From: a virus | Direction: 5' to 3' (one strand) | Length of the DNA: 40,067 bases | IMG/VR virus record: IMGVR_UViG_3300023184_000263 | Span: 1-40,067 of that record | Shown: positions 1-19,855 of the stretch, in pieces | Layout: each line of letters starts with the position of its first letter | How positions within the stretch are numbered: position 1 is the stretch's first letter | Translations under genes and position numbers: made by a program | The notes under the pieces: generated by a model | What the model saw: only the letters and a program-made list of their open reading frames with translations | Told to the model about the DNA's origin: nothing | Database searches by the model: none

Positions 1-305
1 ATTTGCTCAATTGCATCCCTAAATTTTTCGGGTGTGTTTAACCTTTCTTTTGTATAATAAAATAGTAATCCATCAATTTCAATTCCATAAATATAACAAC
101 TCGTATTTTGAATGTAATCCGTACTCAAACGCCCCTTTTTATGTAGTGTTATATTTTTTCTTACCAAATGTGGTGGTGATACCTCTCTTATTGAAAAATG
201 TGTAACTTCATTTGTAGTATTATCCCAACCTTTGAAATACCATCCTTTGCCTTTTACATTTAGTGAATACCCATTTATTTTATGGATGTTTTTAAGTGTT
301 AGCAT
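1..305 (-). CDS. LTIKN-family paralogue, cut by window edge
   Basis: An open frame begins with ATG at 305 and runs off the left edge with no stop. It starts MLTLKNIHKINGYSL, the N-terminal signature shared by many proteins here, followed by a Trp-rich strand (GKGWYFKGWDN). The ATG lies inside the last codons of the upstream gene, a 14-nt overlap typical of this cluster. No function is known for the family. Only the first ~100 residues are visible, and since most family members are about 100 residues long, little is probably missing. Confidence 0.75.
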   Translation of the reverse strand, partial: MLTLKNIHKINGYSLNVKGKGWYFKGWDNTTNEVTHFSIREVSPPHLVRKNITLHKKGRLSTDYIQNTSCYIYGIEIDGLLFYYTKERLNTPEKFRDAIEQ

Positions 306-609
306 CTTCGTCTTTTTTTATATCCGCCATTATACAATTCATATAATAGATTAGCCCTACGGGTGTAATATCGGTATTCTTTATTAGGTATTCGTATTTA
401 GTGCCATTATTGTTTGTTCGTATTCTATACCTATCCAATGCTTCATCCGTAAACCTATCCAATGTAAAATACCAAGTGGTGTTTTTGTAATGCCCTACAT
501 TAGATATAGTAAATACATACCTATCATTTCGTTCATCTATATCATACACTTCCCACTTCTCGGTTATTTGTTTGCCTTTAATCTTATCTATGTTTTTTAT
601 TGTTATCAT
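292..609 (-). CDS. LTIKN-family paralogue
   Basis: A 105-residue member starting MITIKNIDKIKG, then a WEVYDIDERNDRY segment, a LDR motif (TLDRFTDEA) and a C-terminal helix. The recurring pattern is: N-terminal strand, WxV strand, charged turn with Tyr, LxR strand, Tyr-rich strand, final helix. No catalytic motif, membrane segment or signal peptide is visible. It follows a GC-rich intergenic stretch with a TTTGATAG box, so it may begin a transcript. Function unknown. Confidence 0.8.
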   Translation of the reverse strand: MITIKNIDKIKGKQITEKWEVYDIDERNDRYVFTISNVGHYKNTTWYFTLDRFTDEALDRYRIRTNNNGTKYEYLIKNTDITPVGLIYYMNCIMADIKKDEDANT

Positions 610-682
610 TATATATACATTTTATACTATCAAAAAAATTTAGGTAACGACACTTTTTTCCCCCAACCCCCGCCCGCGTTAT
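610..682 (-). promoter_or_regulatory. GC-rich intergenic element with -33-like box
   Basis: On the minus strand this gap holds a G-rich run (GGGCGGGGGTTGGGGG) followed by a short A tract, a GTCGTTACC segment, and TTTTTTTGATAGT. The same order of elements occurs at 4029-4078, where it makes a convincing terminator plus promoter. Here the hairpin is degraded (only GGT/ACC pairs) and no TAnnTTTG box lies 20 nt from the TTTG. It reads as a diverged, perhaps weakened, copy of the same module. Confidence 0.45.
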
Positions 683-709
683 TTACTTATTCTTTTGTAT
701 CGTTAGCAT
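683..709 (-). pseudogene. Eight-codon remnant of an LTIKN-family gene
   Basis: The end of the upstream paralogue (703-1008) contains ATG at 709 overlapping its TAA, the same ATGCTAA overlap seen at 4850/4844. Translation gives MLTIQKNK and then a stop at 683-685. Only the family start signature survives before the GC-rich spacer. I read this as what is left after deletion of a former paralogue. A chance match is possible because it is so short, but the exact MLTI start in the exact junction context makes that less likely. Confidence 0.5.
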
Positions 710-1008
710 ACCCTACTGATTTCTTTTTGTAAGATAAATTTGAATAAATGTTTGTTTTCTATATCCGATATGTGTACTACTCTTTTTATTGTACTTTTAT
801 TATTATGCATTTCATACTCACCATAACCAATACTATCTCTCATTAAATAAAACACTACATATTCATTTGATGTGTCAGGTTGTTGTCGTATCACTATTCC
901 GTAGTAATCATTTTCATCATTGATATTGATTTTAGTTACCATCCAATTACTACCATTATGTGCAATCACTTCATTATGTAATTTATCTATATTTGTTATT
1001 GTTAGCAT
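703..1008 (-). CDS. LTIKN-family paralogue
   Basis: A 101-residue member with start MLTITNIDKLHNEV, core NWMVTKININDENDYYGIVI, a YLMRDSIGYGEYEM segment and a final helix. It ends in VC-stop with a remnant paralogue start overlapping the stop codon. It is separated by 7 nt from the next upstream member. Function unknown; predicted soluble. Confidence 0.8.
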   Translation of the reverse strand: MLTITNIDKLHNEVIAHNGSNWMVTKININDENDYYGIVIRQQPDTSNEYVVFYLMRDSIGYGEYEMHNNKSTIKRVVHISDIENKHLFKFILQKEISRVC

Positions 1009-1015
1009 AATTATT

Positions 1016-1339
1016 TTATTTACTGAAACTATCTAATTGTCCACCCAACATACCAACAAACATTTTAAAATTTAATAATCCGGTTGTTAGTATTACATAA
1101 TTAACATTTTGGTCATTATACATTCGCCATTCGTTTGCTGTACTATCGAATTCATTATATCTTAATAGTTTAAAGTTTATATACTTTGGATGTTTTATGC
1201 CAAATGATTTACCATAATCAAATCTTACTTTGATAATATAATCATATTTTCTTTCCTCTATACTCATTACTACCCAATATGCGTTTACTGTCTCTATTTT
1301 AGTTCCTTCTATCTTTTGTATATTACCTATTTTTAGCAT
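1016..1339 (-). CDS. LTIKN-family paralogue
   Basis: A 107-residue member with start MLKIGNIQKIEGTKI, core YWVVMSIEERKYDYIIKV, LLRYNEF in the LxR position, and a hydrophobic C-terminal helix. The start codon is one base after the stop of the upstream gene (TAATATG junction), implying translational coupling. Compared with its neighbours the residues are widely diverged and only the start and spacing are conserved. Function unknown. Confidence 0.8.
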   Translation of the reverse strand: MLKIGNIQKIEGTKIETVNAYWVVMSIEERKYDYIIKVRFDYGKSFGIKHPKYINFKLLRYNEFDSTANEWRMYNDQNVNYVILTTGLLNFKMFVGMLGGQLDSFSK

Positions 1340-1340
1340 A

Positions 1341-1652
1341 TTATTTGTTTAACATATCATTAATTGCTTGCTTTATAAAATACGGGCTTATTTGATGTAA
1401 ACTTAACCATCTATTTATTTTACTTTGGTCAAAATCCTTATACAATCTATAAACAGGTTCGTTTCTACCGCTTACATATTGGCTCTCTCTATTCAAATAA
1501 AATACATTTTTTATTTTAAAATCTTCAGAAACAACAAATCCATATACATCTTTGTAAACATCAATTGTTTCGGCTGCTTTACTTATATGCCATTTGTAAG
1601 GTAATGGGGATGTTATGTTTATTATCTTATCTATGTTTTGTATTGTTAGCAT
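1341..1652 (-). CDS. LTIKN-family paralogue
   Basis: A 103-residue member with start MLTIQNIDKIINI, KWHISKAAETIDVYKDVYGFVV core, FYLNRES in the LxR position and a PYFIKQAINDM terminal helix. It lies one base from both neighbours, within a run of five members interrupted only by the 64-residue protein at 1654-1848. Function unknown. Confidence 0.8.
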   Translation of the reverse strand: MLTIQNIDKIINITSPLPYKWHISKAAETIDVYKDVYGFVVSEDFKIKNVFYLNRESQYVSGRNEPVYRLYKDFDQSKINRWLSLHQISPYFIKQAINDMLNK

Positions 1653-1653
1653 A

Positions 1654-1848
1654 CTATTTATTTTGTTGGATTAAAATTTGAATTGTAGCTTGTTTTATGA
1701 TTAGTAATTCTATTAATTCATCCCAACCTTCTGCCCTATCCCCTATTATAGTATGGTATTCATTCAGTATCTTATCCCTTTGCAAATCGGTTAGTGTTAT
1801 ACTCAATTGGGTTTCTATTTGTTTAATATCGTTTATACTTACATTCAT
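1654..1848 (-). CDS. Small helical protein
   Basis: A 64-residue acidic, helix-prone protein (SINDIKQIETQLSITLTDLQRDKILNEY, then a second helix DELIELLIIKQATIQILIQQ). It sits between two LTIKN paralogues with 1-nt junctions on both sides but does not share their start or strand pattern. It contains no cysteine, membrane segment or known motif. The helix-turn-helix-like spacing is too weak to call DNA binding. Function unknown. Confidence 0.7.
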   Translation of the reverse strand: MNVSINDIKQIETQLSITLTDLQRDKILNEYHTIIGDRAEGWDELIELLIIKQATIQILIQQNK

Positions 1849-1849
1849 A

Positions 1850-2149
1850 TTATTTCATTATCATTTCAACCGCTCTTATAAAGGTTTGTTTATTACTTAT
1901 TTGTTCTACCTTTAATAACATACTATTAATCGGAGTATCTTCATTCCATATTATATAGCCCTTATCCGTTTTAAATCTATTCAATACAATTTTAATATCA
2001 CTATACGTTTTATTTATATGTCTCAAATGAATATGATATTGTTCGTTACCCTCTTGATTCCAACTCCATGTGTTAAGTACATAATAAACTCCCGTACCAC
2101 TATCAATTCTTTGATTGATTAGTGTAAACATGTTTTCTATTGTTAGCAT
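1850..2149 (-). CDS. LTIKN-family paralogue
   Basis: A 99-residue member with start MLTIENMFTLINQRID, VYYVLNTWSWNQEGNEQYHIHL core, VLNRFKTDKGYIIW (LxR and G-Y strand) and a RAVEMIMK end. One base separates it from the downstream gene and four from the upstream one. The LxR...G-Y spacing here is the clearest example of the family core. Function unknown. Confidence 0.8.
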   Translation of the reverse strand: MLTIENMFTLINQRIDSGTGVYYVLNTWSWNQEGNEQYHIHLRHINKTYSDIKIVLNRFKTDKGYIIWNEDTPINSMLLKVEQISNKQTFIRAVEMIMK

Positions 2150-2153
2150 ATTC

Positions 2154-2417
2154 TTATATTGTTTGCATACAAATTATAATCTTATCAATTGTGTCAAACT
2201 CGTCTTTATTTAGCCATAATGTGTGACCATTATATTCCAGTATATAACATCCATTCTCGGTTTGCTTTCTATGTAATAAGAAAGTTTCTATTTGGCTCAT
2301 TTCTTTATTAGCCAATGTAAATTCATAATGATATTGATTCTCTTTTGCACTAATTACTTTTAACCAATCACTATATTCTTGTCCGATTAATTGTTGAGGA
2401 TTCTTTATTGTTAGCAT
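2154..2417 (-). CDS. LTIKN-family paralogue
   Basis: I start it at the ATG at 2417, giving 87 residues (MLTIKNPQQLIGQEY...). That ATG is one base after the stop of the upstream membrane protein and restores the family N-terminus, whereas the longer frame from 2444 adds nine residues overlapping the neighbour. The core has LKVISAKENQYHYEFTL, LLHRKQTENGCYILEY and a short end. It is the most compact full member. Function unknown. Confidence 0.8.
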   Translation of the reverse strand: MLTIKNPQQLIGQEYSDWLKVISAKENQYHYEFTLANKEMSQIETFLLHRKQTENGCYILEYNGHTLWLNKDEFDTIDKIIICMQTI

Positions 2418-2418
2418 A

Positions 2419-2673
2419 TTATTTTTTATAGTACCATTTACCAAATTTGAATATCATTTTGAAAATACCCATTATTAATAACATAGCCATTGTAACCGGC
2501 CAACATATAGAGAATGCAGTAAATGCTTGTTCATTACTTTCCCAATCATCATACCAGCCACCCTCACTGGCCCATTTATCATAATCAAATCCAATCTTCA
2601 CTCCAAAATATTTAAAGAATGTTAGTGTCAATAAAAATCCTATTGGATATATTATCATTATTAAGTAACCCAT
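2419..2673 (-). CDS. Small two-span membrane protein
   Basis: Eighty-four residues with a hydrophobic N-terminal segment (about 3-20), an acidic Trp-rich loop (KWASEGGWYDDWESNEQ, about 33-49), a second span (about 52-70) and a basic tail (KFGKWYYKK). The loop is probably outside the inner membrane with both ends in the cytoplasm. It precedes another small membrane peptide at 2675 and follows with a single-base gap. No family is recognised. Confidence 0.7.
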   Translation of the reverse strand: MGYLIMIIYPIGFLLTLTFFKYFGVKIGFDYDKWASEGGWYDDWESNEQAFTAFSICWPVTMAMLLIMGIFKMIFKFGKWYYKK

Positions 2674-2674
2674 A

Positions 2675-2851
2675 TTAATTGTTTATTTTATAATCTATAA
2701 ATGCCGTTAATCCTATTAAGATACAAACTAAAGATACAATTGCCCAATCTGCACTCATATTATTGCATATTGCAAATAAAGAAACTCCAAATGTTAATGC
2801 ACCCAATACTAGTAATGCACCACGTCCAATTGATTTTAATACTTTTTTCAT
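2675..2851 (-). CDS. Small membrane peptide, 58 residues
   Basis: An ATG at 2851 opens a 58-codon frame: basic start MKKVLKSIGRG, a hydrophobic segment (ALLVLGALTFGVSLFAIC), a short NNMSADW loop, then a second span (AIVSLVCILIGLTAFI) and DYKINN at the end. It fills the gap between 2673 and 2853 exactly, with one-base junctions on both sides, which strongly supports it. Likely an inner-membrane helical hairpin. Function unknown. Confidence 0.75.
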   Translation of the reverse strand: MKKVLKSIGRGALLVLGALTFGVSLFAICNNMSADWAIVSLVCILIGLTAFIDYKINN

Positions 2852-2852
2852 T

Positions 2853-3722
2853 TTATATAAATTTTAATATTGATAAATCTTTTTGTTTTGCTTCTACCAT
2901 TATGTCCACTTTGTTACCATATGTTTCAGGTATACTTTCAATGTAATCACTATGCGCTTGTGGTTTACTACCTATTTTACTTTCCGAATAGTGTGTTACA
3001 GGTCTTATACCTTTCGGCCACGTTGAACATGCCAATGCCAATGCTGCTTCCTCACTTAAATTTCCAGTATTGAATGTGTGATGATGATAATCAAATACAA
3101 TAGGTATCTTTATTGCATTGTGAATATACATTAAGTCTTTAACTGAATACATACTCGCCTTATCATCATTCTCAATTGTTAATCGGCTTTTTACTGAATT
3201 AGATAGTAGTTTGAAATTATCTATAAACCTATCCATCGCACTTTGCTTATCACCATACACTCCGTTACAATGTATATTAATTTTATTGTAAGGTGTTTTA
3301 CTTAATCCTAATGCATCCATTAACCTGCCGTGCACCTCTAAATCATTTATTGTATTTTGTACTACCGCTTCTTTTGGTGAAACTAATACATTGAAGGGAC
3401 CTGGATGAAATGATAATCTTTGCCCATACTTTGTTGCTTTCTCACCACATCTTTTTAGTATGATTGCAATTTCATTCCAATCTTTTAGTTGCTCAAATTG
3501 GTATTCGGTAGCCCACGGCATCATATCGGAACTCATACGATACATCTTAATACCATTCTGCTCATTCCATTCTATAATCCGTTCTAAGTCCGCTACATTT
3601 TGTATAACACAATCCGATACATAATCCAGTCCCTTTTCTAAGAAAGTTCTCTTAATCATTGTTCGGTTTGTAGTGACCTTTTTACCCAAACTCATATTAA
3701 TACATGCATATCCTAAATTCAT
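2853..3722 (-). CDS. uvsE: UV damage endonuclease UvsE/UVDE
   Basis: A 289-residue TIM-barrel enzyme of the UVDE family, which nicks DNA 5' to cyclobutane dimers and 6-4 photoproducts and starts an alternative excision repair route. Family landmarks are in order: LGYACI start, YRMSSDMMPW, FHPGPFN, IENDDKASMY, DYHHH, THYSES and AHSDYI, ending MVEAKQKDLSI. The His, Asp and Glu residues in these blocks form the three-metal site. The length matches bacterial UvsE (about 280-310). It overlaps the upstream membrane gene by 4 nt. A phage would use it to repair sunlight damage to its genome. Confidence 0.93.
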   Translation of the reverse strand: MNLGYACINMSLGKKVTTNRTMIKRTFLEKGLDYVSDCVIQNVADLERIIEWNEQNGIKMYRMSSDMMPWATEYQFEQLKDWNEIAIILKRCGEKATKYGQRLSFHPGPFNVLVSPKEAVVQNTINDLEVHGRLMDALGLSKTPYNKINIHCNGVYGDKQSAMDRFIDNFKLLSNSVKSRLTIENDDKASMYSVKDLMYIHNAIKIPIVFDYHHHTFNTGNLSEEAALALACSTWPKGIRPVTHYSESKIGSKPQAHSDYIESIPETYGNKVDIMVEAKQKDLSILKFI

Positions 3723-3997
3723 ACTTTCTTTGTTTTTCGTTTGAGTAATTCAGTTTCTATTTTATCTATTCTACCTTTCATAGAACGCATTTTAATATTG
3801 TGTATGAAATTACCTAACATTGTTTTAGGTATTCTAGCTTGCTCTACACTCAATGATAATTTGATTGCTTTTAGGAGTTTTCTTAGTGCCATTCTGTCCA
3901 TTGGTTTTATGTGTTTGCTTTTATATGTATCATACAAATACCAACAATACATTAGCATTATACACACTACATATACTATTGTTTGCTTATCGTACAT
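3719..3997 (-). CDS. Membrane-anchored small protein
   Basis: Ninety-two residues: MYDKQ, one membrane helix (about 6-22, IVYVVCIMLMYCWYLY), then a basic region with two amphipathic helices (KPMDRMALRKLLKAIKL...; KGRIDKIETELLKRKTKK). It is probably N-out with a cytoplasmic basic tail that could contact nucleic acid or lipid. It begins only 3 nt after a consensus -7 box, so its transcript is probably leaderless. It heads the transcript that includes uvsE. Confidence 0.75.
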   Translation of the reverse strand: MYDKQTIVYVVCIMLMYCWYLYDTYKSKHIKPMDRMALRKLLKAIKLSLSVEQARIPKTMLGNFIHNIKMRSMKGRIDKIETELLKRKTKKV

Positions 3998-4000
3998 ACT

Positions 4001-4032
4001 TAAAGATACGAAATATATATGAAACTATCAAA
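4001..4032 (-). promoter_or_regulatory. Bacteroidetes-type promoter, leaderless
   Basis: Minus strand: TTTG (4032-4029), 20-nt spacer beginning ATAG, then TATCTTTA (4008-4001). This fits the Bacteroidetes TTTG/TAnnTTTG pattern. Only 3 nt separate the -7 box from the ATG at 3997, so transcription should start at or beside the start codon. Confidence 0.85.
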
Positions 4033-4066
4033 AAAAATTGGGGTAAACGACCTTCGCTCAACCCCC
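4030..4066 (-). terminator. Rho-independent terminator fused to the next promoter
   Basis: Minus strand: GGGGT (4065-4061) pairs with ACCCC (4044-4040), with AGCG/CGTT pairing inside, followed by AATTTTTTTTG. It ends the transcript of the 4079-7261 genes, and its T tract runs straight into the TTTG box of the next promoter. Confidence 0.7.
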
Positions 4067-4078
4067 GCCCCTTCCCCG

Positions 4079-4552
4079 CTACAATTGTTTTAGGTAATTG
4101 TTACGATACAATTCTTTAAAGTATTGCTCAACACAATATATGAATGCATTTGCGTTACTCATATCCTTTGGATGTATTGCATATGAAGGCATTAATGTAT
4201 TCAAATCTAATTCTAAATATAGAGCGTAAAATGGCTCACCGGTTTCGTTATCAGCACATCTTTGTTTATCTAATATTAATCGGCAACGATGGTTATATTC
4301 ATATGAGTATAACTGAATTTCATAATAGTATGGTATTGATTTGCTTTTATCCAACGTCTCACATACATTCTTAATCATATAATCAGTACCGGTTAAATGC
4401 ACATCCAATATTCTTTTTACATTTCTTATTTCTAGCATATTAGTTTGTTTTATCATTCTGTCATCAAACACACTCATATCACATACATCACACCAGTCGG
4501 TGTCATCATAGTTAATTGGATTGTTGCATCTAATACAATCATGTACAGTCAT
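4079..4552 (-). CDS. Zinc-ribbon fused to LTIKN-family domain
   Basis: Residues 1-27 form a treble-clef or zinc-ribbon-like module with two CxxC pairs (CIRCNN at 6-9 and CDVC at 21-24 in MTVHDCIRC...DWCDVCDM). A family domain then starts at residue 39 (MLEIRNVKRILDV) and runs to the end with the usual LxR-like strand (LILDKQR) and final helix. An internal ATG at 4438 could also give the family domain alone. The downstream paralogue starts one base after this stop side of the cluster. The ribbon suggests a nucleic-acid or protein contact role for the family. Function unknown. Confidence 0.78.
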   Translation of the reverse strand: MTVHDCIRCNNPINYDDTDWCDVCDMSVFDDRMIKQTNMLEIRNVKRILDVHLTGTDYMIKNVCETLDKSKSIPYYYEIQLYSYEYNHRCRLILDKQRCADNETGEPFYALYLELDLNTLMPSYAIHPKDMSNANAFIYCVEQYFKELYRNNYLKQL

Positions 4553-4553
4553 A

Positions 4554-4850
4554 CTATTTAATTATAAGTTCGGTAATTCGTTTTATCATTTTCCGCTTTG
4601 TGTTTATCTTATCCTTTGCTAATAAACTTCGTTGAACATTACCCACACTATCCCAATACCATAATTCATATAATGCAGTTTCACCTCTACCAATTGGGTT
4701 TCGTTCTAAACTCATTTCAAATCCAATGTTATGGTTATTAGCCACTACTATTCTATATTGAGTTTCAGTTTCCTCAACACTATGGATAAATACAGTCGTA
4801 TCTTTAATCTTTGTATTTACAATTTCAATATAATTCTTAATTGTTAGCAT
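4554..4850 (-). CDS. LTIKN-family paralogue
   Basis: I start it at ATG 4850 (MLTIKNYIEIV, 98 residues). That ATG overlaps the upstream stop as ATGCTAA, the stereotyped family junction. A start at 4868 would add six residues (MYKRFD) inside the neighbour. The core shows FIHSVEETETQYRIVV, SLERNPIGRGETALYELW and an ITELIIK end. Function unknown. Confidence 0.8.
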   Translation of the reverse strand: MLTIKNYIEIVNTKIKDTTVFIHSVEETETQYRIVVANNHNIGFEMSLERNPIGRGETALYELWYWDSVGNVQRSLLAKDKINTKRKMIKRITELIIK

Positions 4851-5137
4851 ATCAAACCTTTTATACACCTAACTACATACCGCATATTTTTTAGTTGGTC
4901 TTTTGTTATTGCCATATACTCCGTACCATGTTTTAGTATGAATAATCCAATAGGAGTAGGTTTACGGGATATAGTACAATGTATCATGTGACCTTCATTT
5001 GGATTATCCACATGAATATGATAATGCATTAATGAACTTTTAATGTTAGTTATTGTCCACCCATCACCAACATCTGATAATACAATGTTCTCACTATTTT
5101 TTATCGTTATCCGATTTTGTTTCAATGTTGGCTGCAT
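4844..5137 (-). CDS. LTIKN-family paralogue with displaced start
   Basis: Ninety-seven residues. The family signature appears as RITIKNSENIVL at residues 9-20, because the usual family Met codon is CGG here. The only ATG upstream is at 5137, eight codons earlier, which forces a 44-nt overlap with the upstream membrane gene. The rest is typical: DGWTITNIKSSLMHYHIHV, TISRKPTPIGLFILKHG and a CIKGLIC end. The start codon appears to have moved upstream after loss of the original. Function unknown. Confidence 0.72.
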   Translation of the reverse strand: MQPTLKQNRITIKNSENIVLSDVGDGWTITNIKSSLMHYHIHVDNPNEGHMIHCTISRKPTPIGLFILKHGTEYMAITKDQLKNMRYVVRCIKGLIC

Positions 5138-5381
5138 TTAAAAGTTCAGTTAGTAATTTATTACCATTAACATCTTTTTTCTTACTAAGATTATCATTAA
5201 TTTCTGATAAAATTTCTACACCCTTTTTGTTATCATGTTCTTTGATACCCGCCAATGTTTGTAGTTTTTCTACAACTTCAGGTTCAGGTGCATATACTTT
5301 TGGATTCAATATACGTTTTTGTTCTTGCTTTGCACCTACTAACCAACCGATAGCAAATGCCATAATTAATAATACTACCAT
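5094..5381 (-). CDS. Membrane-anchored coiled protein
   Basis: Ninety-five residues: an N-terminal span (MVVLLIMAFAIGWLVGAK), then a charged cytoplasmic or periplasmic region with a PEPEVVEKL start and a Lys-rich tail. The GWLVGAKQEQ junction closely matches GFLVGIKQGR in the neighbour at 5385, so the two may be old duplicates. Its 3' end overlaps the next paralogue by 44 nt. Function unknown; spanin-like use is possible but unsupported. Confidence 0.7.
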   Translation of the reverse strand: MVVLLIMAFAIGWLVGAKQEQKRILNPKVYAPEPEVVEKLQTLAGIKEHDNKKGVEILSEINDNLSKKKDVNGNKLLTELLNAANIETKSDNDKK

Positions 5382-5384
5382 ACT

Positions 5385-5690
5385 TTATTTCTTTTTATGT
5401 TTTTCTTTTAATGTTGTTATAATCACATTACGAACTTCTGCTTCAAATTCTTTACTATGTTCTCTCGCATAATCAGTTTGTGTTTTTGGTTTACTACCCA
5501 TTGTACCCATTGTGTCTACTGAACTTGTTGGGTATAAAATTGGATAGACTGATGCTGTATATTCCATATCATAATACCCACGATCTTTTTTAATTTGATT
5601 GACTAATTGGTTTCTACCTTGTTTTATTCCTACTAAAAATCCAATACTGAATATGATAATCAATACGATTAGTGTTATTATAATTTCCAT
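5385..5690 (-). CDS. Membrane-anchored small protein
   Basis: A 101-residue protein with one N-terminal span (about 2-20, IIITLIVLIIIFSIGFLVG), a basic stretch after it (KQGRNQLVNQIKKDR), a Ser/Thr/Met-rich middle and a charged helical C-terminus ending KEKHKKK. By the positive-inside rule the bulk is cytoplasmic. It follows the upstream gene by the TAAGTTATG junction common in this genome. Function unknown. Confidence 0.7.
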   Translation of the reverse strand: MEIIITLIVLIIIFSIGFLVGIKQGRNQLVNQIKKDRGYYDMEYTASVYPILYPTSSVDTMGTMGSKPKTQTDYAREHSKEFEAEVRNVIITTLKEKHKKK

Positions 5691-5693
5691 AAC

Positions 5694-6002
5694 TTATTTG
5701 TGTTTTTTCTTTGGTTTAATATATAAATTTATACCAATACCATTTTCCTCGCCCCATGCTAAATCATATGAACTATAAACATATATTTTATGATGTTTTT
5801 TATCAATGATTGCTCTATCAATATAAATCATTTGGTATTTTTCAGTTTCTAAATCTTCTAATCTTTTTTTATGATATTGTTTACTCCAATTAATATAATC
5901 ACTAAATTGATTGTAAAGTATTGTATCTCTCTTTGGATATTGTGCATTTACTAAACATGCCCACAATAAAGATAGTAATAAAATTGCTATTACTTTTTTC
6001 AT
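5694..6002 (-). CDS. Secreted small protein with signal peptide
   Basis: Start placed at ATG 6002, giving 102 residues: MKKVIAILLLSLLWACLVNA then QYPKRD. This is a classic signal peptide (basic n-region, Leu-rich h-region, VNA-Q cleavage). The longer frame from 6032 only adds basic residues overlapping the neighbour. WACLVNA could alternatively be a poor lipobox. The mature part is basic with a YIDRAIIDKKHHKIYVYSSYD strand region. Probably periplasmic. Function unknown. Confidence 0.72.
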   Translation of the reverse strand: MKKVIAILLLSLLWACLVNAQYPKRDTILYNQFSDYINWSKQYHKKRLEDLETEKYQMIYIDRAIIDKKHHKIYVYSSYDLAWGEENGIGINLYIKPKKKHK

Positions 6003-6003
6003 A

Positions 6004-6108
6004 TTACTTTGTTTTACTTTTTTTGTTTTCACTTATTTTTTCATCTAATATTGTTATACCAAATATAACAATTGTCATTGCGTAAAATACAATCATTGAG
6101 TAATCCAT
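6004..6108 (-). CDS. 34-residue membrane peptide
   Basis: ATG at 6108 opens MDYSMIVFYAMTIVIFGITILDEKISENKKSKTK and a stop at 6004-6006. It is one hydrophobic helix followed by a Lys-rich tail. It exactly fills the gap between its neighbours with a one-base TAATATG junction to 6002, which is the main support. Peptides like this often modulate membrane enzymes. Function unknown. Confidence 0.6.
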   Translation of the reverse strand: MDYSMIVFYAMTIVIFGITILDEKISENKKSKTK

Positions 6109-6113
6109 ATCAT

Positions 6114-6419: not shown

Positions 6420-6420
6420 A

Positions 6421-7050
6421 TTAAAAAGGATTTGATGGTGTGTTTTGTTTTAATTCCTCTATTTGTTTTTGTAACTCTTTTATTGTATCTACCATTGAAC
6501 CATGTGTATATGTGTTACTACCATTAGTGTAAACAATATTATTTCCATTTGTAGTTATACCAATTGAATGACTATTAAATGTTGGTGCTGATAGTAATTG
6601 TGTGCTTAACATTTCATCAATTAGTTCCTCATACCTTATTCTAAATAAACTCACGGTTCTAATATCAACTAATTCTATTTTATGTTTTATAACCAAACCA
6701 TTACCATCCAATAATTTAAGTATGTGTTTATCATATCCATTACCATCAATTAACAATTCTAAATGCCACTTTGGTTTTTGTGGTAAGTTTAAATTCAATA
6801 CATCTGCATAATACATATTTCCAGGGGCATTATGTATTGGATTAACACATGTATAACCTTTATATGTAAAACCACTAATCTTATCCCAATTCTTAATCTT
6901 CATAGGTTTCTTTAATTTACTTTTATTTGTTGGTACATCTTTGCCACCCCACACTCCTAAATGACAACTGATATGGTCATAATTAACTAAGTAATCATAC
7001 TCCACATTAGAGGTATCACTACCACATATACTACATACCCAAGGATTCAT
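6421..7050 (-). CDS. Zinc-ribbon, LTIKN-like domain and coiled coil
   Basis: A 209-residue, three-part protein. Residues 1-30 hold MNPWVCSICG with a later His/Cys pair (HISCH), probably a zinc-binding knuckle. Residue 50 starts MKIKNWDKISG, which resembles the LTIKN family N-terminus and is followed by a ~100-residue beta-rich domain with W-H-L and Y-D-K strands. A low-complexity Asn/Gly/Thr stretch then leads to a C-terminal heptad helix (MVDTIKELQKQIEELKQN). It parallels the ribbon-family fusion at 4079-4552. Function unknown. Confidence 0.72.
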   Translation of the reverse strand: MNPWVCSICGSDTSNVEYDYLVNYDHISCHLGVWGGKDVPTNKSKLKKPMKIKNWDKISGFTYKGYTCVNPIHNAPGNMYYADVLNLNLPQKPKWHLELLIDGNGYDKHILKLLDGNGLVIKHKIELVDIRTVSLFRIRYEELIDEMLSTQLLSAPTFNSHSIGITTNGNNIVYTNGSNTYTHGSMVDTIKELQKQIEELKQNTPSNPF

Positions 7051-7261: not shown

Positions 7262-7266
7262 ATACT

Positions 7267-8090: not shown

Positions 8091-8645
8091 TTAGCTATTG
8101 GTTGTATCGGTTAATGGAACTATTGATTGTCTATTGTTATCACCATCGGTTATAACTCTGATTGAATTGATTTCAGCTAAATCCGTTAAAGTGACCTTTT
8201 CTATATTAATACCCCATTCAGCTACTTTTTTACCAATCTTTTCGGTCAGTTCAACTTCGATATCAACCAGGTCTTCCCAATTTCTTTCCTCAATAATTTC
8301 TCTAATCATTGCACCGGTAGTGTCTACTAATACATCAGTAGGGTGAGACAATTTAGTCAAGAATAAATATGTATCTTTAATATCATATCTTACAATTGCC
8401 CTAACTACTATGTTTCTATAATCTAATGATGTAATTGATTGTGGATGTAAGTGTATTGATTGTGTTACTACCGTCTGATGCCATACTGAATCTACAAATG
8501 GTATTTTCCAATGTAATCCTGGATCTTTTATATCCTCAAACTTACCGAATCGTAATACTAATGCTTTTTCCCACATATCCACTACGAATACGGGTGACAT
8601 TGAATGTCCAAATTGTTGTATTACCGCTATTAATTTATCAAACAT
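8091..8645 (-). CDS. SPFH/Band 7 domain protein
   Basis: A 184-residue protein of the stomatin/prohibitin/flotillin/HflKC group. After a short N-terminal helix come the family strands VVDMWEKALVLRFGKFEDI, DPGLHWKIPFVDSVW, the SLDYRNIVVRAIVRYDI strand and the DLVDIEVELTEKIGKKVAEWGINIEKVTLTDL helix-strand. No clear transmembrane span precedes the domain, unlike HflK. Such proteins assemble into membrane rings and modulate proteases such as FtsH. It begins a transcript and is one of two SPFH genes in the window. Confidence 0.85.
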   Translation of the reverse strand: MFDKLIAVIQQFGHSMSPVFVVDMWEKALVLRFGKFEDIKDPGLHWKIPFVDSVWHQTVVTQSIHLHPQSITSLDYRNIVVRAIVRYDIKDTYLFLTKLSHPTDVLVDTTGAMIREIIEERNWEDLVDIEVELTEKIGKKVAEWGINIEKVTLTDLAEINSIRVITDGDNNRQSIVPLTDTTNS

Positions 8646-13442: not shown

Positions 13443-13447
13443 AGGTA

Positions 13448-13618: not shown

Positions 13619-13620
13619 AT

Positions 13621-13971: not shown

Positions 13972-14248
13972 TATTTTTCTTTTTATAGTAATCTCTTACC
14001 AATTCATTTATCTTACCTTCTATTATCATTTCAAAGTTAGTATTTGCTAATTCATTTATATTAGTATAAAATCTAGCACTGCCGAACTTTAATTTTATTT
14101 GATGTATTTCAAATTTAGGATATAGTTTGATAATTTCTGAAATTTCTATATCTAGCATTTCGGTCACTTCTGGAATATCAAATCCTAACCCATACCATTG
14201 GTCTGGAATGTATTGTTTGTATTTCTCATTAAACTCATTATCTGTCAT
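13961..14248 (-). CDS. Conserved phage-type small protein
   Basis: Ninety-five residues. The segment FEIHQIKLKFGSARFYTNI resembles a motif I recall from phage proteins (Q-x-K-x-K-F-G-x-L/A-R-F-Y) of unknown role. Acidic helices flank it. It overlaps the downstream membrane gene by 11 nt and shares one base with the upstream gene's stop/start. Function unknown. Confidence 0.7.
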   Translation of the reverse strand: MTDNEFNEKYKQYIPDQWYGLGFDIPEVTEMLDIEISEIIKLYPKFEIHQIKLKFGSARFYTNINELANTNFEMIIEGKINELVRDYYKKKNNEL

Positions 14249-14865
14249 TACTTATATTTTTGTTTTAATATTATATCGTAGTAATCAATTCTTTCATCAA
14301 CCCCATCCTTACTACTTGTCCAAGTTTGCGGAAACTTCTCTCTACATTCCGCTACCCTTTCCATTTTTGATTTGGTTTTATCAGTATCGTTTTTATAGTA
14401 TAACCAACTTGTCCAATAGTGGTCGTGGTAAGGACTATAAACTGTTAATGCTATTTGATAACCAAAGAACACAAATGATAAAACAGGATTCCATTCATGT
14501 CTATAATCCGTGTCATTCCATTTTGTTTTCCAACCCAACCCACAATAACTAAATCCTACTTTAAGTGGTACTGCAAAGTTATAGTTTTTCTTTTCTTCAA
14601 ATAACTCCTCAAAAGATTTTATCTTACGAGCATGCGTAGGATTTAATTCATTCCATTTCTTTTGTGCTGCTATTTCCGATGTAACCGCTGCAGTTATCAG
14701 TTTATTATTTCCTTTAACCCATTTTCTAGGAAAGAAATAAGGAATACCTACTGCTATTTTACCAGCATAGAAACCAACTTTAAATGGTTTGAATGGTGAG
14801 TTTAATATTCCCAACCAACTGAAACGATTTATTAAGTATTTTAATTCAAATTTTAACTTATTCAT
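14248..14865 (-). CDS. Uncharacterised aromatic-rich protein
   Basis: A 205-residue protein rich in Trp, Tyr and Phe. Blocks include KPFKVGFYAGKIAVGIPYFFPRKWVK (about 27-52), a charged middle helix (TAAVTSEIAAQKKWNELNP), and FAVPLKVGFSYCGLGWKTKWNDTDYRHEWNPVLSFVFFGYQIAL. The KVGFY / KVGFS repeat suggests two similar beta units. No signal peptide. I believe similar sequences occur in other large phages, but I cannot name a function. Confidence 0.7.
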   Translation of the reverse strand: MNKLKFELKYLINRFSWLGILNSPFKPFKVGFYAGKIAVGIPYFFPRKWVKGNNKLITAAVTSEIAAQKKWNELNPTHARKIKSFEELFEEKKNYNFAVPLKVGFSYCGLGWKTKWNDTDYRHEWNPVLSFVFFGYQIALTVYSPYHDHYWTSWLYYKNDTDKTKSKMERVAECREKFPQTWTSSKDGVDERIDYYDIILKQKYK

Positions 14866-14870
14866 ATTAC

Positions 14871-15101
14871 CTATTTTTTATTTTCAATGTTTTTATTATG
14901 GAGTTCAACAAAATACTCCGCAATATGTTTATGTAACTCCCCAGACCGAACTATCCAATATTCATCTTGACTATCCCCATCATCAAAAAGTATAGGTTCA
15001 ATAGGTTTTATAGTTCTACACCAACACCGTTCTCCTTGATTACAAGTGCCTATTTGCCATTTAATAGTAAGTGCTTTTTGTTCTGCTTCTTCAAATTTCA
15101 T
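14871..15101 (-). CDS. Small Cys-rich protein
   Basis: Seventy-six residues with CNQGERCWC near residues 19-27, giving three Cys in nine positions, then an acidic loop (FDDGDSQDEYWIV) and a helix with His residues (ELHKHIAEYFVELH). A mixed Cys/His metal site is possible but the fourth ligand is not clear. Function unknown. Confidence 0.65.
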   Translation of the reverse strand: MKFEEAEQKALTIKWQIGTCNQGERCWCRTIKPIEPILFDDGDSQDEYWIVRSGELHKHIAEYFVELHNKNIENKK

Positions 15102-15102
15102 A

Positions 15103-15666
15103 TTATCTATTTAATTTTGTTATACATTCATCAATCTTATTTCTTAACTTACCTTTGAATTGCATTTCACCATTTACTTTTACGTGTCTCCATTGTGGGA
15201 TATTCATAAACTTAAAATGTAATGCTACATTCAAATCATCAATTGCTATCCAATTACTAATCTTATTATCTTTAACCCACTTTGCTATTTGAGCCGCTCG
15301 CATATAATCACCGGAACATCTACTCATCTTATCCCACAGGTATTGATATGTAGTTGTATCAATTAAGTGTGAATTATGTATTCCGTAGTGTTGAAAGATT
15401 GCACCCATTTGTTTAAATGAAAAATGATTTCTCCAATCTGAGCTCAATACTAATTTTGCATTTGTTTCATCTAATATAGTTTGTAATGCTTCACATTCTG
15501 GTATATCCCAAGGGTATGGTATTGTAAACGGCTTCACCATTCCTTCATTGATTAGTAACCTACCATTGTCCCAATTTTCATTTGGTGTAATACTAACACT
15601 ACCATCATTCCAACTGCCCCAAGATAAAGGTCCATCTACATCTATGAATATTATTTTCTTTCTCAT
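15103..15666 (-). CDS. HAD-superfamily phosphatase-like protein
   Basis: A 187-residue protein with HAD motifs: FIDVDGPL (motif I, with Asp nucleophile and general acid, residues 7-14), LVLSSDWRNH (motif II Ser/Ser) and WIAIDDLN (motif IV acidic pair). The SSDWR element is typical of HAD domains in RNA-repair 'Swiss Army Knife' proteins and phage polynucleotide phosphatases. Lying next to a DNA ligase it could remove 3' phosphates before sealing, as in T4 Pnkp. Substrate is inferred. Confidence 0.8.
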   Translation of the reverse strand: MRKKIIFIDVDGPLSWGSWNDGSVSITPNENWDNGRLLINEGMVKPFTIPYPWDIPECEALQTILDETNAKLVLSSDWRNHFSFKQMGAIFQHYGIHNSHLIDTTTYQYLWDKMSRCSGDYMRAAQIAKWVKDNKISNWIAIDDLNVALHFKFMNIPQWRHVKVNGEMQFKGKLRNKIDECITKLNR

Positions 15667-15669
15667 AAC

Positions 15670-16779
15670 TTATTCGTATTCGTTTCTATCAATATTAATT
15701 ACATAAGGAAAACGGGGAATGCCATCAGGTGTTAAATTGAAATATTTAATCGTTGCTTGCTTACCGATTAGTTTCTTTTTGCTCTTTAACATCTCAGCCG
15801 TTTCATCCCAAGTTCCTTTTACATTTGATTTGAAAGGTTTACCATCAATCGTTTCAAATACCATATAACCAGCAGTTCCTGTTCTATTACCGTCACCCTC
15901 TACGATATCTAAAATAGTATATTCATCATCAACAAACGATTTATGTTTCAATAAGTTCTTACTTCGTTTGTTTTCATACTTACCATCTATTCTTAACATC
16001 TGACCTTCATAACCTGCTTCTACATATCCACCATATAATTCCTCAACTGCTTTCTCACTATCAACTTTATATGTTTGTACTATTCTACAATACTTACCCA
16101 TTTCCAAATAAGTTTCAAATAGTATTCCTAAATCGTATGCTCTATGCACAAAGTTTTTGTCTGATGATGGTAAATCGTAGATATGATATTCAATATACTT
16201 TTTACTTTCTTTTAAATCTGCATCGGTTGGTTTTGTTTTCTTAACTAACGATACAATCTTATTGAAATCATTAGCAAACTTATCACAATATAATTCACCA
16301 TCTAATATCAAATCCGGATTAACTAAAAATAAGTTTCGTAATGAATCAATGATATGTGGTGCTGAAAGAATAGGTTTACCATTTCTACTAAACATACCAT
16401 TTTTTGTCACTACGCAACGAATACCATCTAACTTAGCTTGCGAATAAATTGGGTATGTAATCTTATCTTTACAATCCTCCCACTTTGCCGCTAACATTGG
16501 TTCAAAGTATTGTGTTTTGTTTATGTGTTTGATATTCTCAAAGTAACCACTCTCTAATTTCTTTGTTCGTTTAGCTACCGCCTCTGCCATCGTTTGTTCT
16601 TTATCCGTAGTTTCATTTGCTCTACCAACATTCTTACCATAACAAATTGTCCACTCATTCGTAGTAATTTGTCCACCAACTTGTCCACTATGAGTGCGGT
16701 ATTTATTACCCACTACTTCAATTGTCCATTCTTGCGTTGCACCAGTCTTTGTTTTTTTGTAAATTGTTTCTAATTTCAT
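15670..16779 (-). CDS. ATP-dependent DNA ligase with N-terminal WGR-like domain
   Basis: A 369-residue ligase. Residues 1-85 resemble a WGR domain (QEWTIEVVGNKYRTHSGQVGG...EAVAKRTKKLESGY). Ligase motifs follow: I SQAKLDGIR with Lys116 as the adenylated residue, Ia SRNGKPI, III LILDGELYC, IV YEGQMLRI and V LLKHKS. A C-terminal OB domain with KSKKKLIGKQATIKYFNLTPDGIPRFP ends the protein. It seals nicks with ATP, in contrast to the NAD ligase of the host. Neighbour of the HAD phosphatase. Confidence 0.93.
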   Translation of the reverse strand: MKLETIYKKTKTGATQEWTIEVVGNKYRTHSGQVGGQITTNEWTICYGKNVGRANETTDKEQTMAEAVAKRTKKLESGYFENIKHINKTQYFEPMLAAKWEDCKDKITYPIYSQAKLDGIRCVVTKNGMFSRNGKPILSAPHIIDSLRNLFLVNPDLILDGELYCDKFANDFNKIVSLVKKTKPTDADLKESKKYIEYHIYDLPSSDKNFVHRAYDLGILFETYLEMGKYCRIVQTYKVDSEKAVEELYGGYVEAGYEGQMLRIDGKYENKRSKNLLKHKSFVDDEYTILDIVEGDGNRTGTAGYMVFETIDGKPFKSNVKGTWDETAEMLKSKKKLIGKQATIKYFNLTPDGIPRFPYVINIDRNEYE

Positions 16780-16796
16780 ATTTTAGGTTTTATATT

Positions 16797-17135
16797 TTAT
16801 TTACGTTTATCATATTCAGCATCTAAAATTCCTTGCATTGAAGCTAAGAAAATATCTTTATTTAATAATCTATCTTTAGGCCATGCTGTAATTGAAATAA
16901 ATTTATCATAGTGTTCATAACATACACAAACATTATAACCAAATTCACCTGCTTCTCTTTCAATTTGAATAGCAGCACCAACACTATCTTTACTATTACT
17001 GCGTCTACTTAAACGAATATTATAATGTTCTGCGTTTATATGATGTTCATTGCTATCACATTGTTCTACACCCATAACTTCCCATTTTCCAATAGAGGTG
17101 TTTTTTAATTTTTGTATGTTTTTTAATGTTAGCAT
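16797..17135 (-). CDS. LTIKN-family paralogue
   Basis: A 112-residue member: MLTLKNIQKLKNTSIGKWEVMGVEQCDSNEHHINAEHYNIRL, then IQIEREAGEFGYNVCVCY (LxR/G-Y strands) and a terminal helix. It is one of four members lying far from the left-end cluster (with 17625, 18261 and 19547). Starts 11 nt after the upstream stop. Function unknown. Confidence 0.78.
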   Translation of the reverse strand: MLTLKNIQKLKNTSIGKWEVMGVEQCDSNEHHINAEHYNIRLSRRSNSKDSVGAAIQIEREAGEFGYNVCVCYEHYDKFISITAWPKDRLLNKDIFLASMQGILDAEYDKRK

Positions 17136-17146
17136 ATTAATTTTAA

Positions 17147-17446
17147 TTATTTAATAATATTAATGTAAGTAGGTTCACCATTCCATATAGTATCATTCAA
17201 ATACCATATCTTTTTTCTTTGATAGATATTCACACCCGGTAATGCATTTAATCTTTCTTTTGTAGTATTACTTTTCCAACCCGCATTACTAATCCACATT
17301 TTACCATTACCTTCTAACGCGGCAATCTTATTATTAAATAGTTTTAAATAAAATATTGTACCTTCTCTAACTACTTCGGTATTATCTTTTTTGAAAGGAA
17401 CTTTGTCAATAAAGTTTTTCACTGCTTCTTTTGTAATTTTTCTCAT
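17147..17446 (-). CDS. Conserved phage protein (TTKERLN family)
   Basis: I start it at ATG 17446 (MRKITKEAVKNFIDKV, 99 residues). The frame is open to 17476, but the ten extra codons diverge freely from their duplicate copy at 25798-25828, as a leader would. Core: NTEVVREGTIFYLKLFNNKIAALEGNGKMWISNAGWKSNTTKERLNALPGV...WYLNDTIWNG. The pattern N-A/G-W-x-S-x-TTKERLN occurs in many phages with unknown function, probably DNA or RNA binding beta proteins. Confidence 0.8.
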   Translation of the reverse strand: MRKITKEAVKNFIDKVPFKKDNTEVVREGTIFYLKLFNNKIAALEGNGKMWISNAGWKSNTTKERLNALPGVNIYQRKKIWYLNDTIWNGEPTYINIIK

Positions 17447-17516
17447 ATTATGATTTTTTGTTATGTGAGGAGTCATTCTCTCGACTCAATACATAAAGAT
17501 ACGACTTTATATTGGA
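17446..17516 (-). repeat. Duplicated promoter-leader module, copy 1
   Basis: Bases 17474-17516 are identical over 43 bp to 25826-25868. The next 28 bases down to the second ATG match in about two thirds of positions, with identical spacing. The block includes the -7 box TATCTTTA (17501-17494), a conserved leader (TGTATTGAGTCGAGAG on the minus strand) and two in-frame ATGs 30 nt apart. Confidence 0.9.
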
Positions 17517-17524
17517 TTGGCAAT
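17494..17524 (-). promoter_or_regulatory. Operator-linked promoter
   Basis: Minus strand TATCTTTA (17501-17494) with a poor -33 box (ATTG at 17524-17521, 19-nt spacer). A weak -33 element with a palindrome just upstream suggests activation. Leader of 47 nt to the ATG at 17446. Confidence 0.7.
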
Positions 17525-17548
17525 GCCCAAAGTGAACTAATTTTGAAA

Positions 17549-17573
17549 GTTTTTATTGAGTATCAACAAGCTA
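17549..17573. promoter_or_regulatory. 25-bp palindromic operator (left arm degraded)
   Basis: Plus strand ATTGA, GTA, TCAACAAGCTA. Same consensus as the copies at 25911, 25981, 26006, 37676 and 37725; the outer left arm is lost. It lies 25 nt upstream of the -33 box of the 17446 gene. Confidence 0.6.
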
Positions 17574-17591
17574 CGTCAATATAACCCTATC

Positions 17592-17625
17592 ATATTAGTA
17601 TTTTTTATTATATGATACCTAATAT
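17592..17625 (-). terminator. AT-rich hairpin at transcript end
   Basis: Minus strand ATATTAGGTAT (17625-17615) pairs with ATACTAATAT (17601-17592), ten pairs with one bulged G. No T tract follows, so termination is uncertain. A similar ATATTAG/CTAATAT hairpin follows the gene at 26074. Confidence 0.4.
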
Positions 17626-17942
17626 TATTTAAAATTATAGTTATCCAATTTTGCTAAACATTTTGTTATCATAACTGCCAAATCGGCCGCACTTCTAACA
17701 TCCGAATTATATATTTCAACTTCGGTAGCAGCAGCCCATCCCATAACATATAATTTATAATTACCTTGTGGTTTTCTATCTCTGTCTAAATAAACTTCTA
17801 CATCTACGTGTCCATCATCTTTAAATACAAATACATAGGAATCATATCCCATTCTTTCATTATGTAGATTATAAAATTCTTTTATGGTTCGGCTATTACA
17901 TACATAACCAACCATTTTTTCTATGTTTTTTATTGTAAGCAT
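17625..17942 (-). CDS. LTIKN-family paralogue
   Basis: A 105-residue member: MLTIKNIEKMVGYVCNSRTIKEFYNLHNERMGYDSYVFVF, then VYLDRDRKPQGNYKLYVMGW (LxR/G-Y core) and a long terminal helix (VRSAADLAVMITKCLAKLDNY). One base separates it from the upstream gene. Last gene before the operator-containing gap. Function unknown. Confidence 0.8.
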   Translation of the reverse strand: MLTIKNIEKMVGYVCNSRTIKEFYNLHNERMGYDSYVFVFKDDGHVDVEVYLDRDRKPQGNYKLYVMGWAAATEVEIYNSDVRSAADLAVMITKCLAKLDNYNFK

Positions 17943-17943
17943 A

Positions 17944-18207
17944 TTATAATTTTTGTATTTTTTCCATTACTTCGGTTACATCAACAGGTCTTAAATAACC
18001 AATCACATCATTTGTAATTGGTGTATCGTAACATATCTCGCCATCTTTAAAGATGGCTAATTCATATAGTCCTTTATCACCACCATAAGTGTATTTACTT
18101 TTTACTACTGATACTTCATACCCATTATCAAATTTAGTTCTGCTTACAATTCCAAAATCCTCACCCATTGGGTTTGATTTGAATATTATGTCTTTAAATG
18201 TTTTCAT
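17944..18207 (-). CDS. Conserved phage-type small protein (YGG-x-GLYE)
   Basis: Eighty-seven residues with NGYEVSVVKSKYTYGGDKGLYELAIFKDGEICYDTPITNDVIGYLRPVDVTEVMEKI. The pattern NGY-x-VSV...YGG..GL-Y/W-E-AV/I...D-V-x-G-Y/x-L is one I recognise from many tailed phages, always without assigned function. Single beta sheet and final helix. It has its own promoter 20 nt upstream. Confidence 0.75.
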   Translation of the reverse strand: MKTFKDIIFKSNPMGEDFGIVSRTKFDNGYEVSVVKSKYTYGGDKGLYELAIFKDGEICYDTPITNDVIGYLRPVDVTEVMEKIQKL

Positions 18208-18227
18208 AATTTGTTTTATTTAATCTA

Positions 18228-18259
18228 TAAAGGTAGTTCATTTTTCTCATACTACCAAA
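18228..18259 (-). promoter_or_regulatory. Bacteroidetes-type promoter
   Basis: Minus strand TTTG (18259-18256), 20-nt spacer beginning GTAGTATG, TACCTTTA (18235-18228), then 20 nt to the ATG at 18207. Confidence 0.83.
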
Positions 18260-18260
18260 T

Positions 18261-18611
18261 CTATTTGTATGATTTAATTGGTTTAATTTTCATTTGCCAA
18301 TTATTGTTACCCGCCATTTGGCATATCATATAACCAAACCAATCTTTGTTTTTAATACAATTCAAAGTCACTTCGGTTCTGTTATTAGATGCATGCGTTT
18401 GATACATAACATAGTTACCACTATATTTTGCACCACTATCCCTTAATAGTGTAAATCCAATGTAATCTTCTATTGGTCCATTTGCTTTTGTTAATGAAAC
18501 AGTTATTCCATACTTTTCCTTACCTTCGTTTATGTCCTCAATAGATAAAGTATAACCATCACATTGAATATAATCACCTTTAAGTTTATTAAAGTTTTTA
18601 ATGTTTAACAT
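18261..18611 (-). CDS. LTIKN-family paralogue
   Basis: A 116-residue member: MLNIKNFNKLKGDYIQCDGYTLSIEDINEGKEKYGITVSL, TLLRDSGAKYSGNYVMYQ (LxR/G-Y core), TLNCIKNKDWFGYMICQM helix and a basic extension (MKIKPIKSYK). The stop precedes the promoter of the next gene by one base. Function unknown. Confidence 0.8.
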   Translation of the reverse strand: MLNIKNFNKLKGDYIQCDGYTLSIEDINEGKEKYGITVSLTKANGPIEDYIGFTLLRDSGAKYSGNYVMYQTHASNNRTEVTLNCIKNKDWFGYMICQMAGNNNWQMKIKPIKSYK

Positions 18612-18614
18612 AAA

Positions 18615-19142
18615 CTATGGTTTAAGTTGTTTAATATGTTTACACGTTTGTGGTGTTTCTTTACTATATTGATAGGCAGGACAGGTACAACTCCAATCAC
18701 TAGTCCCCAATACATTTTCTGTCACTTCGTATGTTACATTAGGACCTGAACTACTCGGTACAATATGTTTAATTTCGGTCATAGTTATATCAGTCATGCC
18801 CATCATATTAGGTCTTACATCTTTTAAATCAACCTTATTTGCCACATCATACATATTTGAAATAGCAAAATCTTTAAATCGTTCTACTGTCAACATATGT
18901 GCTTTTGGAATAGGTAATTTTTCGTGCAAATACCAACCATCCGTTCCTTCACCTACTACACATATCTTAACATTGTATTGTTCTTTATCCCAATCCATTT
19001 CAAATAGAACTACATTATTCCAATCAGTAGTTCCATTATCCATCACAAAAAATCCATCGTTAGCTACGTCAATTGTAAGTTTCTTACTACCTACTATTAT
19101 TTGTTCGTTATCTACTTTGTTAAAGTTTTCTGGTTTTTTCAT
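18615..19142 (-). CDS. SWIM zinc-finger protein
   Basis: A 175-residue protein. The C-terminus has SWIM form: VTYEVTENVLGTSDWSCTCPAYQYSKETPQTCKHIKQLKP, that is CxC at about 151-153 and CxH at about 167-169. SWIM modules bind zinc and mediate protein or DNA contacts. The N-terminal 130 residues (GFFVMDNGTTDWNNVVLFEMDWDKEQ...) are unrecognised. A second SWIM protein lies at 21676-22014. The N-terminus does not match that protein. Confidence 0.82.
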   Translation of the reverse strand: MKKPENFNKVDNEQIIVGSKKLTIDVANDGFFVMDNGTTDWNNVVLFEMDWDKEQYNVKICVVGEGTDGWYLHEKLPIPKAHMLTVERFKDFAISNMYDVANKVDLKDVRPNMMGMTDITMTEIKHIVPSSSGPNVTYEVTENVLGTSDWSCTCPAYQYSKETPQTCKHIKQLKP

Positions 19143-19543
19143 ATTTTATAAATTTTAATTTTTCTTAATTTAGTTTGTTTATCGTTTGCTCCAATTAATA
19201 TATCAATTCGTTTCGTATATCGTTTGTTCATTACATCCTGAACTTTGTATGTACCACTATATTTACCGGCACCAACAATTCTAATCTTTTGTCCAAACTT
19301 ATATTTCTTTTTTAGGTCTCTACTAACTGCAATAATTCTATGTTTCTTTGGGTTAGTAATCTTAAAACCACTTGCAGTTATATTTGGTGTACTATCGGTT
19401 TCAGTTTCGTTTGCTTTATATGTGGTTAGTGTCACTATTTCGGGAGTAATTGTTTCAATCATTGTGTTGATTCGTAACTCTTCCCGTTCCATTTCGTAAG
19501 GTAAACAAACCATTACGATTGAAAGTATTATATTGTAATTCAT
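19139..19543 (-). CDS. 3D-domain (RlpA-like fold) cell-wall protein
   Basis: A 134-residue protein. Hydrophobic start (NYNIILSIVMVCLP) then charged linker. From about residue 40: TTYKANETETDSTPNITASGFKI...RIIAVSRDLKKKYKFGQKIRIVGAGKYSGTYKVQDVMNKRYTKRIDILI. The DS-x-P...Y..G..V.D.M....RIDI layout is the '3D' double-psi beta barrel seen in lytic transglycosylases and resuscitation factors. Likely exported or membrane-anchored and acting on peptidoglycan in lysis or entry. Confidence 0.78.
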   Translation of the reverse strand: MNYNIILSIVMVCLPYEMEREELRINTMIETITPEIVTLTTYKANETETDSTPNITASGFKITNPKKHRIIAVSRDLKKKYKFGQKIRIVGAGKYSGTYKVQDVMNKRYTKRIDILIGANDKQTKLRKIKIYKI

Positions 19544-19546
19544 AAC

Positions 19547-19855
19547 TTATAATAATTTTGGTTTCCAATCGTCAGTCAATAAATCTAGTTTGTCCATTAG
19601 ACTATCTATATTCATTATGTCCTCGTGCTTTATCCAATAAGGATATCTTACACAATATGCTTGGTTACTATATTTTCCAATTGTGTAATAACCATTTTTT
19701 TCCGGCCTTCTATTTAAGATAATAAAATGTCTCATATGACCTCTCCATACATTAATTCTATATTCATCTCTCGTTTCTTCAATATCTTCAATGTAGTTTT
19801 TATCATCCCATTCTTTACGGAATAGTTTTTCAAAGTTCTTAATTGTTAGTTTCAT
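19547..19855 (-). CDS. LTIKN-family paralogue
   Basis: Start set at ATG 19855 (MKLTIKNFEKLFRKEW, 102 residues); the frame extends to 19882 inside the upstream peptidase gene. Core: YIEDIEETRDEYRINVWRG, ILNRRPEKNGYYTIGKY (N-R-R/G-Y strands), and an acidic helix end. It overlaps the upstream gene by 17 nt. Function unknown. Confidence 0.78.
   Translation of the reverse strand: MKLTIKNFEKLFRKEWDDKNYIEDIEETRDEYRINVWRGHMRHFIILNRRPEKNGYYTIGKYSNQAYCVRYPYWIKHEDIMNIDSLMDKLDLLTDDWKPKLL

Follow-up and report, generated by a model that had tools for sequence, protein, structure and literature searches.

The window analysed here is the entire IMG/VR record IMGVR_UViG_3300023184_000263 (40,067 bases), which is probably a piece of a larger genome; its GC content is about 30% and the minus strand carries nearly all genes. 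An earlier note made from the letters alone (the sequence-only reading) had claimed that at least 14 copies of a protein with an MLTIKN start lie here, about nine of them within 5.2 kb. We find 15 members, ten of them within the first 5.1 kb, and all the gene coordinates listed in that reading hold, on the minus strand throughout. The units lie at 1-305 (truncated at the edge of the window, with a 93% identical counterpart in the related record G008), 292-609, 703-1008, 1016-1339, 1341-1652, 1850-2149, 2154-2417, 4079-4438, 4554-4850, 4844-5113, 6421-6903 (MKIKNW start and a C-terminal extension), 16797-17135, 17625-17942, 18261-18611 and 19547-19855 (MKLTIKN start). The 2154 unit begins at an internal ATG (2417), which corrects the open reading frame given earlier, and the ORF of the 4844 unit begins upstream, at 5137, with MQPTLKQN.

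Family membership rests on an ORF scan and on leave-one-out profile HMMs, which recovered 14 of 14 genes with significant scores between members: E = 2e-5 for the first gene, which is cut by the window end, and at most 5e-6 for each of the other 13 (Z = 100). All 14 score higher than any of 2800 shuffled decoys, which still holds for 10 of them once the first eight residues are cut off, so the similarity exceeds the MLTIKN start. In the alignment of the whole family, on the other hand, no stretch is sufficiently conserved to scan with. A scan of all 221 ORFs of the window returned precisely these 14 genes, followed by a large gap in score. The fused gene 6421-7050 was marginal by HMM (E = 0.014 in the window scan and 9e-4 with the iterative family HMM) but clear in a profile-profile comparison (hhalign, probability 95%, E = 2e-8), which brings the total to 15. 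Two neighbouring genes, at 17944 and 20216, were rejected (HMM E of 2.5 and 1.1).

The genes at 4079 and 6421 had been called fused members, and both indeed consist of a unit behind an in-frame, ribbon-like leader on the minus strand. The first leader (4439-4552) is zinc-ribbon-like, with a CxxC...CxxC pattern, and the second lies at 6904-7050. Altogether, 28 members carry N-terminal extensions (for example these two and G005_27449), and the leaders fused in frame ahead of the start motif are of several unrelated kinds (ribbon-like, membrane-like, proline-rich). In record G030 a leader of the 4439-4552 type precedes a different unit, and another ribbon-like leader is also joined to differing units in different phages.

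Among the other genes of the window, a UvsE-like gene (2853-3722) matches genes that carry the annotation of UV damage endonuclease in large phages, and it has family units on both sides, in the window as well as in its closest relatives. By reading only, two SPFH/stomatin-like genes and one radical-SAM-like gene (8091-8645, 33452-34306 and 27473-28972) look like unusual phage cargo.

Next, we looked at the architecture, which the sequence-only reading had described as fixed. Two members gave confident AlphaFold models with the same layout, namely a five-stranded sheet with a short N-terminal helix and a C-terminal helix. The 2154 unit, modelled with 107 sequences, reached a pLDDT of 94.4 and a pTM of 0.84 (helix 7-10; strands 20-26, 30-36, 43-49, 58-62 and 65-69; helices 71-74 and 77-86). 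The 1850 unit, for which only its own set of eight orthologue sequences was used, reached 86.5 and 0.78, with the elements in the same order plus a short strand at 14-17. The agreement in fold thus covers two members, the second of them from an independent orthologue set. Fold searches with the two models gave no confident structural neighbour and nothing above the level of a common arrangement, which does not imply that the fold is novel; the best matches had VIA Z values of 5.6 and 6.7 (a Mediator subunit domain), lower than the 7-8 that is usual for background. The positions that are conserved (I4, N6, W18, Y31, R50 and Y58 in 2154 numbering) look structural, and between orthologues the loops vary most. 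This combination does not suggest an enzyme, and we were not able to find a catalytic motif in the family.

The virus records that we compared are metagenomic assemblies. The DNA pattern of the start pulled out 31 IMG/VR loci, to which further records were added later, and the iterative HMM finds 347 members in 24 virus records. The largest set comprises 35 members in one record of 101 kb, and the longest uninterrupted runs of family genes reach 17. With the window counted, 12 of the 33 records searched with the family HMM contain members, and many records with a similar UvsE-like gene are without any family member. The same start pattern gave 23 loci in 84,980 cellular genomes and no clear member among them; the best locus scored an HMM E of 0.003 and was not confirmed in its genome, and a cellular origin was rejected. 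With two members as queries, tblastn gave no match in 50,697 phage records, and HMM searches found no members in Microcystis phage Mel-JY01, in three phages of 484-642 kb or in Flavobacterium phage immuto. Searches of Pfam, PHROGs, NCBIfam and PDB sequences, run both with individual members and with the alignment of 107 sequences, returned scattered weak matches of single members only. Since several members never match one and the same model, membership in a known Pfam, PHROG or NCBIfam family was rejected. A literature search gave no paper on the family. As for its owners, the 274-kb record G073, which carries the same family, encodes a large terminase that shares 57% identity with its counterpart in Flavobacterium phage immuto; T4-type phages rank lower among the matches. 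The owners are thus likely to be large T4-type phages of Bacteroidota.

The sequence-only reading had also taken the low similarity between copies as rapid divergence, as expected of proteins in an arms race. If so, the copies would have arisen by local tandem duplication and diverged in place under rapid positive selection. It is true that the units stand in tandem, that the loops are their most changed parts and that they evolve faster than their neighbours: the median dN/dS between orthologues is 0.44, compared with 0.24 for neighbour genes (p = 4e-10), and the family is under somewhat weaker constraint than these. However, no orthologue pair has a dN/dS above 1, the groups evolve under purifying selection, and orthologues are conserved across phages, often at 50-99% identity; for 212 of the 347 members, another genome contains a relative above 70%. 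Recent duplicates occur in none of the 24 records, and no pair of members from the same genome reaches 50% in identity times coverage. When we clustered the members at 45% identity, we obtained 140 groups, and two members of one group were never found in one genome, against an average of 22 such cases with shuffled labels (a rough control that ignores shared descent). Since orthologues are shared, dN/dS stays below 1 and copies within a genome are barely alike, the copies are old and kept by selection, which speaks against rapid diversification in place. We regard this scenario as mostly refuted and its remaining probability as small. The diversity is instead an old, non-redundant repertoire; the rapid turnover is in the choice of units that a phage carries and in their order.

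This turnover can be followed between related records. Units often stand head to tail, with a median gap of 4 nt, and between the same flanking genes the window and records G021, G022, G030 and G025 hold differing sets of units in differing orders. Of 31 family pairs, 11 stay adjacent, as opposed to 169 of 211 non-family pairs (p = 1e-6). Orthologues exist for 115 of 209 family genes and for 616 of 883 other genes. When the DNA of orthologues is compared, the homologous stretch breaks off no more than 20 nt upstream of the ATG in 61% of the cases for the family and in 29% for other genes. The clearest swap is that between G030 and G022, which share the zinc-ribbon-like leader with 120 nt upstream that are 100% identical and 200 nt downstream that are 99% identical, with a different unit in between: a 4079-type unit in G022 and a 2154-type unit in G030. 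The latter is 97% identical to the window copy, which sits elsewhere in the window. The identity of G030 to G022 ends at +6, inside the start motif, and its identity to the 2154 copy starts about 9 nt ahead of the ATG, whereas the right-hand junction has no start motif. In a second case, G017 and G020 are 96% identical over 300 nt upstream and then carry different units. The G017 unit has a 92% identical counterpart in G020, 0.6 kb farther along, a picture that the loss or gain of whatever lay between two start motifs would produce. In total, we count 68 pairs with the same upstream part and a different unit, which are not independent and some of which share only a mobile intergenic element. 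These sequence comparisons give good support for an exchange of single units whose junctions fall at the conserved start. We also see members of which one half is near-identical and the other half different (G017:154611 and G072:51853; G073 and G070 in the 1016 group), which suggests that recombination may occur within units too.

The start had further been noted as conserved at the level of DNA, and this stands beyond codon bias. The conserved stretch of about 20 nt is AATATGCTAACAATAAAAAAYAT; A-rich positions upstream share their conservation with the first seven codons. Within the window the motif TATGCTAACAAT is found without mismatch at five starts (998, 1642, 2139, 2407 and 4840), all of the family, with none ahead of unrelated genes; when up to two mismatches are allowed, the number of matches is 25, where 12.4 would be expected. 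Leu2 is encoded by CTA in 70% of 123 non-redundant members and in 8% elsewhere (p = 6e-28; the comparison set is codons 2-8 of other genes, where TTA makes up 75%), and Ile4 and Ile7 by ATA in 90% of members as opposed to 57% in other genes. Protein conservation or a generally A-rich start is insufficient to account for CTA. The constraint could fit a recombination seam as well as translational control. Translational repressors that act by binding to start regions exist in T4-type phages, and the start could be a signal for translation only (a RegA-like repressor site or an initiation signal), the exchange being ordinary illegitimate recombination filtered by selection for intact genes. This joint conservation of upstream positions and first codons and the motif-free right junction of the clearest swap agree with this. 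On the other hand, other genes of these phages have neither the motif nor the CTA bias, and the clustering of junctions is twice as strong at family starts as at other genes. The junction data favour the seam but do not prove it, and we consider a pure translation signal rather unlikely. The earlier proposal that the start seeds recombination therefore stands as far as the position of the junctions is concerned, while the motif as the cause of the exchange is likely, although selection for intact genes would also leave junctions at gene ends and the G030/G022 swap has one junction free of it. If the seam is real, the conserved start would supply the short homology for recombination, and any unit could be joined to a different leader without losing its frame or its translation. 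The same recombination would remove near-identical copies, which would explain the absence of duplicates.

Some of the gaps between units hold a regulatory-looking element. The copy at 610-690 on the minus strand consists of a G-rich stretch, TCGTTACC, a T-run and GATAGT, 17 nt ahead of the ATG of 292-609, and a second copy on the same strand (4020-4080) directly follows the 4079 gene. Further copies are found in records G008, G013, G021, G022, G025, G030, G033, G034, G039 and G040, giving 21 in the stretches of related arrays that we read. Their general layout is a G-rich, G-quadruplex-like stretch (in a genome of 30% GC), a TCGTT-type box, a T-run and GATAGT, and some copies fold as a hairpin ahead of the T-run. 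A family member precedes 19 of the 21, and in about half of them the next gene starts within 17 nt. The element may be a terminator combined with a promoter for blocks of units.

What the proteins do can be approached from their overall pattern. We think it probable, with some reservation, that the family is a phage repertoire of interchangeable cassettes, each of them one protein of about 100 residues and a single fold. Each protein would be a dispensable inhibitor of one host target, likeliest in defence or host takeover and found in some hosts only, so that the best set of units would depend on the hosts met. Small, variable, single-domain proteins in conserved groups, with no obvious active site and carried by large phages, are what an accessory set of inhibitors would look like; database searches gave no annotated relative or target, and we put forward the inhibition of defence or host functions tentatively, at slightly less than an even chance. 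DNA mimicry or general DNA binding was rejected, as the charge is mixed. This mixed charge, the many members per genome and the zinc-ribbon-like and other N-terminal fusions would also suit adaptors inside the phage; the family would then act in one shared phage structure or machine (virion, replication or transcription), with another partner for each member. Since the content varies between close relatives and related phages without the family are among the records examined, no member looks essential, and we find such adaptors fairly improbable.

A process of this kind, in which modules are exchanged at short common sequences close to the starts of genes, already has precedents in T4-type phages, whose mobile regulatory cassettes are said to shuffle genes. 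The intergenic element recalls these cassettes, and the likeness extends to a short repeat between small accessory genes, to modular exchange and to a hairpin or T-run between genes; the main shared sequence here is, however, the coding start, and the exchanged genes all belong to one family. Bacillus phage G also carries a long run of diversified paralogues in a large phage (L221:17561-32996, gp444-gp469; at least 23 genes that have gp numbers as their sole annotation and products of about 200 aa in which a CPIC...C motif is seen). Homology to it was rejected (hhalign probability 0.3%), and its adjacent copies are the most similar ones, which indicates local duplication, unlike in the MLTIKN arrays. 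In cluster K mycobacteriophages, start-associated sequences of 13 bp lie upstream of the starts of many unrelated non-structural genes (PMC3203893). Like the motif described here, they are fixed at translation starts in one orientation and are not found in the host, but the present motif extends over the opening codons of a single family. T4 has small accessory anti-defence genes such as tifA and dmd, and its genome changes through recombination at homologies of 2-10 bp (PMC9391042). Those genes are small, dispensable and gained or lost at short homologies, as we propose for the units; here, on the other hand, one fold comes in many versions, with an anti-defence role that we infer.

What is new is the protein family itself, exchange units of one fold, a shared sequence that lies inside the coding start and the strict lack of duplicates. 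There is maybe an integron-like device without an integrase, in which the small fold would be a general inhibitor scaffold, the coding start the seam, and non-redundant sets would be assembled in frame from a clade-wide pool; we see this reading as doubtful. In the gaps of 4 nt between units we saw no palindromic site such as the attC sites of integron cassette arrays. The family offers about 140 groups of unannotated small proteins in a form suited to screening, from phages of environmental hosts that are probably Bacteroidota, and the coding start may itself be a seam for gene exchange.
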